Shown here one piece after another: positions 281 to 39,926 of a stretch of DNA of 64,000 nt. The stretch is from positions 18,432,527 through 18,496,526 of the forward strand of contig OX485808.1 in NCBI GenBank assembly GCA_950295325.1, written 5' to 3'. Position numbers and translations under genes: made by a program. This DNA comes from Polytrichum commune (taxonomy: Eukaryota; Streptophyta; Polytrichopsida; Polytrichales; Polytrichaceae). The first letter of the stretch is position 1; every line of letters starts with the position of its first letter. The notes below the pieces were generated by a model. The model did no database searches and had not been told where the DNA came from. It saw only the letters and a list, made by a program, of their open reading frames with translations.

Positions 281-876
281 GATAATAATAATAATAACTT
301 CGGTCTCCGAAGGAGACCGACGTGATTTAAGTGTCTGTTCGATCCACCTCCAATCCCATGCCCACATGACAAAGGTATGGAGGAAAAGATCTACTCCCCC
401 CTTTCGAGAGTAGACACTTTGAACACAAGAGACCAGTAGCACGGAACCACGACTAACATTACACCCATTGCCCCTTACCCGTAACTTTTAAGTTTTGAGT
501 TATGGGGGATCTAGAGTGTGGGGAAGCGGCTGGTGGTTTTCTATTCTCCTTTTGTGGAGGAGGATAGACATGGCATATTGTATTGTGATGGTGTTAATAT
601 TTTTAAATGTATTTTTGATGGTGAGCATAGGCATTTTGAAATTAGTCTCGAGTGATTTCATAGATGGGATGTGAGCAGTAGCTCTGGCACCAGCAGTGAT
701 GACAAGAAGTGGTTCGATTTTCCATCCTCTAGAAGCAATACTAGCAATAAGTGGTCTGTATTTGTTATTTTTTGCCTCAATTGCTTCTGGGGAGAATCTG
801 TCATTGTAGTATGTGAATTCAATAAATTGTATGGTGAGGTTAGGGTCAATGTCAACGGGAGGGTTGTTTTGATATG
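281..876 (-). mobile_element. 5'-truncated non-LTR retrotransposon (LINE 3' end)
   Basis: Read on the minus strand, the element starts at 876 inside an open reading frame that stops at 500. A roughly 220-bp 3' UTR follows, then a stem-loop at 319-301 (8 paired bases, 3-base loop) and a TTATTATTATT tail ending at 281. It is flanked by the same 10-mer, GTTAGCTCTA, at 271-280 and 877-886, the expected target duplication. The last 140 bp match copies at 887-1031 and 39546-39690. A reading-frame end, structured 3' end, short tandem-repeat tail, 5' truncation and target duplication together indicate target-primed retrotransposition. The clade is not resolved. Confidence 0.75.
500..874 (-). pseudogene. 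C-terminal fragment of LINE ORF2-like protein
   Basis: The frame is open for 124 codons from the truncation point at 874 to a TAA at 502-500, with no start codon because the 5' part is missing. It contains a mixed-composition block near fragment residues 17-33 (IEFTYYNDRFSPEAIEA), then LLVITAGARATAHIPSMK near residues 56-73, and a basic end with HKRRIENHQPLP. This has the look of the region following the reverse transcriptase in some non-LTR elements, but no catalytic motif remains. The absence of stops suggests a young insertion. Identification is by position before a LINE-like 3' UTR and by general appearance, not by a named match. Confidence 0.55.
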
Positions 877-886
877 GTTAGCTCTA

Positions 887-1319
887 GATAGATAAATAGA
901 TATGAACTCCGGCCTTCTTTCGAGGCCGGCGTGAATAAAGTGTTTGTTCGTCCTGACAATGAGCTAGTGCCCACATGATAAAGGGCCATTGGTATAAGAC
1001 TACTCTCCCCTTTCGGGAATAGACACTTTAGTAACCATGGATAAGTACTAGTAACATTAGTAGCATTGATTGGTTAGATATCATGTGGGTATAAATTGGT
1101 ATTTGTTTTTGTTGGTGGTCACCAAGTCATGGTTCCAAGGTTGGTTGGAGCATTTGTGTTACAATTATACGGTCCAAGTTCGATCTCCGTTGACTCCGTT
1201 TGAGCGTTATTGTGATATACATGACTTGGTACTGCTAGTGACTTTATCATAGGCAGGAAAGTTTGTTACATACTAGTCGGCTCTGTCCCCTCTTCCTGAG
1301 ACAAGTGTTTACTTTGATT
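887..1319 (-). mobile_element. Second retroelement with the same LINE/SINE 3' end
   Basis: The minus-strand 3' end has the stem-loop at 929-909 (7 perfect G/C-rich pairs) followed by a TATCTATTTATCTATC tail. It is flanked by GTTAGCTCTA at 877-886 and 1320-1329. Positions 900-1031 align with 297-420 and 39550-39690. The 5' part (about 1040-1319) does not match the first copy and I do not recognise it. A tRNA-like promoter head is not clear here. It may be another SINE subfamily or a shorter LINE derivative. Confidence 0.6.
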
Positions 1320-39532: not shown

Positions 39533-39545
39533 GGAAACCCGCATA

Positions 39546-39913
39546 GATAGATAGAAACTCCGGTCCCTTTTTAGCAAGGGGTTGGCGTGAATAAAGTGTC
39601 CGTTCGTAATGCCAATGACCCGATGCCCACTGGACAAGGGGACATTGGGACAATACTACTCTCCCCTTTCGAGGATGGACACTATAGTGACACACTATAC
39701 TAGTTCCTAGCTAGCCACTAGTGCCTTGAAGATACCGGACATGGTATCCCCCCAAAGGGCTTTGAGGTACCCATACAACAAGGTCCAAGGACCCCCCACC
39801 ATAGTTGGGTGGACTAAGGTGGTGAGCACCACGCCGGCATGGGGAATAGAACCCACAACCTCCTCATTGGGGGCCATGAGCCCTAACCACCAAGCCAAGG
39901 CCCGTGGTGCCTT
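39546..39913 (-). mobile_element. tRNA-derived SINE with LINE-like 3' end
   Basis: A 368-bp element flanked by a perfect 13-bp duplication, GGAAACCCGCATA, at 39533-39545 and 39914-39926. On the minus strand the 5' head has an A box (TGGCTTGGTGG, 39897-39887) and a B box (GGTTCTATTCC, 39853-39843) about 35 bp apart, as in a tRNA-derived Pol III promoter. A unique body follows. The last 140 bp match the 3' ends of the elements at 281 and 887, including a partly paired stem-loop (39585-39560) and a TCTATCTATCTAT tail. It is complete by structure and fairly young because the duplication is perfect. It needs a LINE for movement. Confidence 0.85.
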
Positions 39914-39926
39914 GGAAACCCGCATA

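Follow-up and report, generated by a model that had tools for sequence, protein, structure and literature searches.

Three retroelements lie on the minus strand of the window, the stretch of 64,000 nucleotides of Polytrichum commune DNA analyzed here. An earlier note on this DNA had taken them for LINE-like elements and a SINE which share one structured 3′ end, and the question raised by this locus is what these elements are and how they came to have this end in common. The answer that we favor, with a probability of about 0.88, is that the first two (e1 and e2) are 5′-truncated LINEs of the Dualen/RandI type and that the third (e3) is a SINE transcribed by RNA polymerase III (pol III) which captured the LINE 3′ domain and would be copied in trans by an ORF2 protein recognizing the fold of this domain. 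The features of the window are given below, with the boundaries of all three elements defined via target-site duplications.

285–876, minus strand: e1, a 5′-truncated Dualen-type LINE of 592 bp with a (TTA)n tail
500–874, minus strand: e1 ORF of 124 codons plus stop, C-terminal part of the ORF2 restriction-like endonuclease
296–420, minus strand: e1 structured 3′ domain (z −5.46; matched by the lineage-II model R1, see below)
297–323, minus strand: e1 terminal stem-loop (predicted fold)
271–284 (3′ copy) and 877–890 (5′ copy): e1 target-site duplication, 14 bp
887–1318 (about), minus strand: e2, a 5′-truncated LINE 3′ UTR of another subfamily with a (TATC)n tail
905–1029, minus strand: e2 structured 3′ domain with its terminal stem-loop at 906–932 (matched by the lineage-II model R1)
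270–280 and 1319–1329: e2 target-site duplication, 11 bp, TAGAGCTAACA
39546–39913, minus strand: e3, a full-length SINE of 368 bp with a pol III-box head and a LINE-like tail
39691–39913, minus strand: e3 head of 223 bp, matching none of the LINE copies compared
39887–39897, minus strand: e3 A box, TGGCTTGGTGG
39843–39853, minus strand: e3 B box, GGTTCTATTCC
39556–39685, minus strand: e3 structured 3′ domain with its terminal stem-loop at 39557–39588, the lower stem being broken
39533–39545 (3′ copy) and 39914–39926 (5′ copy): e3 target-site duplication, 13 bp

The likeness of the three 3′ ends was recovered by blastn within the 64 kb, with matches between e2 and e3 (76%; E 5e-24 and 2e-23), e1 and e2 (73–75%; E 1e-11 and 2e-10) and e1 and e3 (72%; E 1e-6). 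Over the 125-nt domain the pairwise identities of e1–e3 are 65–77%. In all three elements the end consists of a stem-loop followed by a short tandem repeat, as the earlier note had described. Its limits for e3 agree with the flanking 13-bp duplication, and its end of e1 at 876 is kept, while the start of e1 moves from 281 to 285 according to the 14-bp duplication. The end of e2 at 1031 has to be given up, since the 11-bp duplication places it at about 1318. The insertion site of e1 is the 3′ flank of e2.

The ORF upstream of the e1 tail, likewise noted before, was found to be 87% identical to residues ~2501–2625, the end of a 2625-aa ORF2, and hence its 124 codons represent the ORF2 C-terminus. 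Searches of the three reading frames of e1 against Pfam yielded nothing useful. Among 2272 candidates from a genome search with e1, the best 40 (e1 among them) were 86–100% identical; the uniform length of ~595 bp of these matches is due to the query itself ending there. An independent 595-bp element was rejected, as relatives extend into longer ORFs of up to 2625 aa. For e2 the corresponding search gave 83–100% for the best 40 of 1344 candidates (e2 among them), and its alignment to the LINE 3′ UTR shows 68% over 369 columns. Because four of the nine relatives compared (L078, L079, L080, and L082) continue to match beyond the 5′ end of e2 at 92–98%, e2 is a 5′-truncated LINE; a 145-bp unit and a SINE were both rejected for this element, which runs to ~1318.

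The 3′ similarity is not limited to the three copies of the window. A core pattern located just 5′ of the terminal stem, GAACRRACACTNNATTCACG, had 1633 matches in the genome and none for the reversed control. All 64 LINE loci inspected end in the shared domain, 44 of which (L021–L024 and L028–L067) had been picked by protein similarity alone and 20 (L001–L020) by DNA similarity including the tail. A further 60 of 60 loci, picked by tail similarity or tail pattern, match one of four reference tails, with nine being truncated or degraded. The 100 core matches listed lie within the initial 21.6 Mb of C1, and the sample drawn from them comprised 40, namely 34 new ones differing from the commonest variant and six of the commonest.

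Searching with the e1 ORF led to the parent element. Among the best 150 of 3610 candidates, three rows lie in open frames of 2625 aa, so that full-length relatives do encode a reverse transcriptase (RT) in one open frame with the 124-codon tail. The parent LINE has a length of ~10.7 kb and contains, stop to stop, a 747-aa ORF1 and a 2625-aa ORF2. Copies A (on C1), B (on C5), and C (on C2) have a common 5′ end and are 99.1–99.5% identical over the DNA compared, which for copy C is the first 3.7 kb. No Pfam family was found over its cut-off in ORF1. The features of ORF2 are the following:

561–8438 of L021, minus strand: ORF2 of copy A
ORF2 aa 277–285: 2A-like motif GDIEPNPGP
ORF2 aa ~500–760: APE-type endonuclease
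ORF2 aa 1122–1387: RT (Pfam 2.6e-29)
ORF2 aa 1871–1966: PCIF1_WW (3e-10, over cut-off)
ORF2 aa 2139–2279: RNase H (Pfam 4.6e-13)
ORF2, motifs of the restriction-like endonuclease (RLE) region: a zinc knuckle starting at aa 2402, the RPD motif at 2491, and the KNNKY motif at 2536

RT (PF00078) and RNase H (PF00075) are both over the Pfam cut-off, and the nearest solved RTs are those of R2 proteins (6.6e-30). The APE domain (Exo_endo_phos_2) is over the cut-off in the related element L128 (9.7e-8) and below it in copy A (1.2e-4), and the region contains the motifs QETK, GDFN, and SDH. An AlphaFold2 (AF2) model of the copy A APE region, of low confidence (pLDDT 56, pTM 0.59, alignment of four rows), matched ExoIII (3.3e-8) and APE1 (4.7e-8) among 145 matches at E≤0.001. 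By sequence, the RLE region gave no relevant Pfam or PDB match, and a profile match to R2 had an E-value of just 0.28. Its AF2 model, also of low confidence (pLDDT 55, pTM 0.56), had four matches at E≤0.001 in a Foldseek search against the PDB, all of them R2 proteins (best 1.5e-5). Given the low confidence of both models, it is the specificity of the matches, together with the motifs, on which the assigned folds depend. Plant L1 and RTE LINEs are, to our knowledge, without an RLE, and a classification as either was rejected on account of the (TATC)n, (TTA)n, and (TTTTC)n ends and the RLE-like fold. According to its predicted domain architecture (APE, RT, RNase H, and R2-like RLE), ORF2 is of the Dualen/RandI type. 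A polyprotein combining APE and restriction-like endonuclease is named as the hallmark of this group in the available text of two studies (PMC4640811, PMC3636483).

In contrast to SINE copies and e1–e3, no target-site duplication was found at the common 5′ end of the full-length copies A (L021/L025) and B (L022/L026); large LINE copies may integrate differently.

Several further observations were made on these proteins. PCIF1_WW lies between RT and RNase H of the LINE, and genome-wide the domain was recorded at all of the 150 places scored, the best of 698 candidates. Where PCIF1 chains have the NPPF motif, the LINE proteins have AHPH, AFPT, or AHPK, and the domain may therefore not be an active methyltransferase. 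In the part of the literature seen on PCIF1 in retrotransposons, no paper carries such an element in its title. ORFs with PCIF1_WW of 2919, 2924, and 2663 aa at C1:40948585, C4:34924404, and C1:51770977, respectively, probably belong to further LINE subfamilies, and the first of them (C1:40948585–40948977) is followed ~2.2 kb downstream by an e2-type tail at C1:40951167. Motifs of the type GDI(E/Q/H)xNPGP are present near the ORF2 N-terminus in copies A, B, and C as well as in L128, L129, and L130, lineage I having one motif and lineage II (see below) having two, with one L128 site being outside the long frame. We take GDIEPNPGP-type motifs to be 2A-like and associated with ribosomal skipping, and their position suggests such skipping near the ORF2 start. 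Apart from the LINEs, a region of ~95 kb (C5:1751760–1846160) holds 14 genes for chlorophyll a/b-binding proteins, all having the same domain scores. The gene content points to a moss as the probable host, and a flowering plant was rejected. The K-box domain has a single match in the genome, compared with dozens in flowering plants. In a comparison of an LHCII protein with solved structures (best 60 of 74 rows), the top matches after a multi-part chain of 620 aa (9vfj_2, 548 bits in total) were 8htu_U and 7xqp_a with 482 and 480 bits, and the others reached 447 at most. The structure 8HTU is of moss origin, and 7XQP is from Physcomitrium patens (PMC12589708). A moss with seven chromosomes would agree with Polytrichaceae.

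A second LINE lineage (L128, L129, L130, and others), here called lineage II, shares about 44% protein identity (42–47%) with ORF2 of copy A. Its member L128 has an open ORF of 2372 aa, aligned to ORF2 of copy A over 2396 aa, in which RT, RNase H, and APE are over the Pfam cut-off and PCIF1_WW is below. The lineage-II tail pattern AACGGGCTCNNATTCACG has at least 502 genome matches (control 0), and the tails finish in (TTTTC)n-like repeats. By blastn, the four lineage-I tails had no match in L128–L141 at E≤1e-3. Among 20 lineage-II tails no SINE partner was found: 16 have ORF2 upstream, L151, L154, and L161 are cut inside the domain, and L147 is the remaining one.

In both lineages the 3′ domain can be folded into an outer stem enclosing a short and a long hairpin, followed by a linker with UUCACG, the terminal stem-loop, and the simple repeat. 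The outer stem is AGUGU/ACACU in lineage I and GAGCCC/GGGCUC in lineage II, and the short hairpin of lineage I has a GAAA-type loop. With few exceptions the tails lead into a short simple repeat, the unit of which varies between subfamilies. The predicted pairing in the terminal stem amounts to nine contiguous plus two outer pairs in e1 and to seven pairs, an additional one across a bulge, and two outer pairs in e2, and is partial in e3. Compared to dinucleotide shuffles of the 125–130 nt domains, the fold energies gave z −5.46 for e1 (0/200 as good), −2.55 for e2 (2/200), and −3.31 for e3 (1/200). The range was −2.55 to −5.46 in lineage I (five sequences) and −6.68 to −8.79 in lineage II (four sequences).

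Covariation was examined within each lineage. The lineage-I alignment A2 has 89 rows (124 loci reduced to 98 distinct domains, 12 removed, three window rows added); L092, L093, L110, L111, L114, L117, L118, L123, and L125 were removed as cut or degraded and L007, L082, and L087 for insertions. The lineage-II alignment A3 has 25 rows from 34 loci, without L131 and L140 (no tail), L151, L154, and L161 (cut), and L139, L157, L158, and L160 (duplicates). In A2, 95.6% of the cells are paired versus 88.6 ± 0.3 after shuffling, there are 197 double-change cells versus 71, and the covariation score is 0.297 versus at most 0.145 with slid partners. Neither the count of A2 pairs showing double changes nor that of pair types was above the shuffles (179/500 and 500/500), and the A2 rows fall into few subfamilies. 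For A3, 96.4% are paired compared with at most 36.7% in slid versions, and 12 of 34 pairs have double changes versus 5.7 ± 1.6 in shuffles (0/500); for further pair types the figure was 21/500 shuffles. Under a tree-based null, in which substitutions were re-scattered on a FastTree tree (200 nulls), the covariation summed over all structure pairs exceeded 200/200 nulls in A2 as well as in A3. Individually, pair 42–70 in A2 was the only significant one, and no single pair of A3 was. For the lineage-I terminal stem alone, 5/200 nulls reached the covariation sum and 2/200 the paired fraction. The fold as a whole is thus supported by the covariation, and the terminal stem by itself, for which the earlier note had reported retained pairing, only moderately so.

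Since blastn found no similarity between the tails of the two lineages, covariance models were used for their comparison. Model R1, built from lineage II with structure and searched against 86,366 bases (the window and seven chosen loci), hit six places, all of them lineage-I tails (E 3e-4 to 5e-3). Its matches in the window were e1 (E 7e-4) and e2 (E 3e-3) only. In the sources searched it missed e3, L059, and L099, and the intact SINE copy L068 was matched. With the structure removed from its alignment (model R3), no match at E≤10 was obtained from these eight sources, and shape is therefore most of what both lineages share. In the other direction, the lineage-I model (model R2), searched against 15 tails of lineage II and four control loci, recovered 11 of the tails (E 2e-6 to 0.018; L132, L133, L134, and L141 were missed) and none of the controls. 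These cross-lineage E-values are rough, and the sequence-only counterpart R3 is one of R1 alone. In the window, model R2 recovered the three members of its own alignment, e1, e2, and e3, at E 4e-36 to 5e-32, and one further match at chance level (E 0.38).

These results bear on two other explanations of the conserved domain. One could regard the terminal stems as chance or GC-driven folds of recent families and the double changes as few inherited events. The small number of independent substitutions, the lack of significance of single pairs other than 42–70, and the values for the terminal stem would fit such a view, which nevertheless appears highly improbable given that the aggregate covariation was reached by 0/200 nulls in both lineages, that z goes down to −8.8, and that the models match across lineages with zero matches for the sequence-only control of R1. 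The 3′ domain might also be kept at the level of DNA, or as a signal at the transcript end (termination, 3′ processing, or stability), instead of as a recognition site for the RT, since a processing role would likewise conserve an RNA fold and would serve a SINE as well. We consider this unlikely, because the lineages share structure more than sequence (R1 vs. R3) and the tails mostly lead into a short simple repeat with a unit that differs by subfamily. In addition, experiments on fish L2 LINEs are reported to have shown that a 3′ stem-loop is bound by the ORF2 protein and is needed for retrotransposition (PMC4176376).

The preferred reading, recognition of the domain by the LINE enzyme, is also consistent with the structure of e3. 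The domain of e3 is 89.6% identical to that of LINE copy A over 125 aligned columns, and over 146 columns the SINE tail shares 86–88% identity with four LINE 3′ ends, to none of which the SINE head gave a match. In the head, A and B boxes with typical spacing agree with 16/19 consensus positions, which 1/1000 dinucleotide shuffles equaled. A search of the head against the Rfam tRNA model yielded no match at E≤10, and the term “tRNA-like” previously used for it is borne out only in part, because the boxes are present but a tRNA match is not. Among the rows obtained with the head from the best 40 of 1033 candidates, 40/43 (e3 included) were 100% identical over 222–223 bp, and the amplification of the SINE is therefore very recent. 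With the e3 tail, the best 40 of 1668 candidates (e3 among them) had 98–100% identity. Terminal duplications of 7–13 bp and one fixed 5′ end were observed in 15 of 17 SINE copies; for the other two (L095 and L069) the script clipped the tail wrongly or too short. The 15 insertions have 15 different duplications, so that there is no single-site target. In the SINE family form L068 the terminal stem is fully paired except for internal mismatches, which shows that the lower stem of e3 was broken by mutation in that copy.

Alternatively, the SINE could be moved by another LINE, for instance an L1-like one, its tail being a LINE fragment inherited by descent and its fold going unrecognized. The genome does contain an L1-like element that encodes APE and RT (L131), and tail identity alone is no proof of recognition. 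This explanation is still very unlikely, as the SINE copies terminate at the shared domain plus (TATC)n like the A-type LINE and not in poly(A), and as the fold was kept despite the sequence turnover between the two LINE lineages. The L131 locus (C5:10508000–10517900) contains ORFs of 723 and 1845 aa with DUF4283, Exo_endo_phos, RVT_1, and zf-RVT and is plant L1-like.

With a shared 3′ end, an unrelated head, a tail spread genome-wide, and a covarying fold, the interpretation as a LINE and its parasitic SINE is supported. The mechanism is likely to be a stringent, structure-guided target-primed reverse transcription, as judged from sequence comparisons and predicted folds. The ORF2 protein would bind its own RNA at the folded 3′ domain and nick the target DNA, and reverse transcription would begin at the simple repeat following the domain, where slippage at the start probably makes the variable (TTA), (TATC), and (TTTTC) tails. 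A SINE RNA transcribed by pol III would present the same domain and thereby be copied in trans. The unit recognized is probably the whole 125-nt domain. In a broader sense, it seems fairly probable that a land plant has retained dual-endonuclease LINEs of two or more deep lineages, with 44% protein identity between them, that their RT reads a conserved multi-helix RNA shape and not a sequence, with nearly all of the tail sequence replaced and the fold kept, and that a pol III SINE acquired its tail from one of these lineages and is multiplying at present.

Near-identical LINE and SINE copies in one plant constitute a natural test of the RNA choice of a LINE enzyme, and the two lineages, which have the fold in common but differ in sequence, provide ready-made swap variants. 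The same system bears on why a LINE keeps two different endonucleases and on the time at which plant LINEs exchanged structured tails for poly(A).

Among known systems, R2 elements also use a structured 3′ RNA; we know of no APE in them. R2 proteins (PDB 8gh6, 9dou, 9nl2, 9nl3) are the nearest solved structures for the RT (6.6e-30) as well as for the RLE fold (1.5e-5), and the P. commune system differs from R2 by the presence of an APE and by SINE insertions without a single-site target. The stringent pairs of animals (UnaL2 and ZfL2; PMC4176376, as far as its text was available) are alike in having a common 3′ tail, a stem-loop, and a simple-repeat end. They belong to the L2 clade and have a small stem-loop, whereas the LINE of the present pair, as predicted from sequence, is a dual-endonuclease element and the shared domain has several helices in ~125 nt. 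The L1-type LINE of maize and sorghum with ZmSINE2/3 is likewise a plant pair in which a 3′ hairpin is accompanied by compensatory changes, but it is of the L1 clade and has a common end of ~50 nt, and the P. commune LINE is of another group (PMC3747384, in the sections available).

In those same sections, three LINE/SINE pairs are named for flowering plants (two from maize, one from tobacco), none of them RandI, with mosses unmentioned there; flowering-plant LINEs are given as almost exclusively L1, and the ends of plant L1 and RTE elements as poly(A) or (TTG)n (PMC3747384). The accessible part of a review lists land-plant LINEs as L1 and RTE (PMC9033089). Dualen/RandI elements are described as being present only in green algae among the genomes compared in one study (PMC4438587, partial text) and, in excerpts of others, are noted in cryptophytes (PMC12747079) and in relatives of Chlamydomonas (PMC8226300). 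The open-access literature on Dualen/RandI, to the extent that its text was accessible, contained no land-plant report; earlier Repbase entries are possible. Among the closest known systems is that of Chlamydomonas, where SINEX-1, -2, -4, and -5/6 share the 3′ ends of RandI LINEs (PMC3747384, same sections). Both systems combine a two-endonuclease LINE, SINEs with its 3′ end, and repeats other than poly(A), which are (ATT)n or (CTATTT)n in Chlamydomonas and (TATC), (TTA), and (TTTTC) in P. commune. In contrast to the Chlamydomonas pair, the present one has a land plant as host and a multi-helix 3′ fold across two lineages. Its LINE also has a PCIF1-like domain and a 2A-like motif, which the algal elements may or may not share. 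Tail sharing between LINEs and SINEs, including RandI, is already known from Chlamydomonas, and measured against the literature as far as it was accessible, what is new is its presence in a land plant together with the conserved fold.
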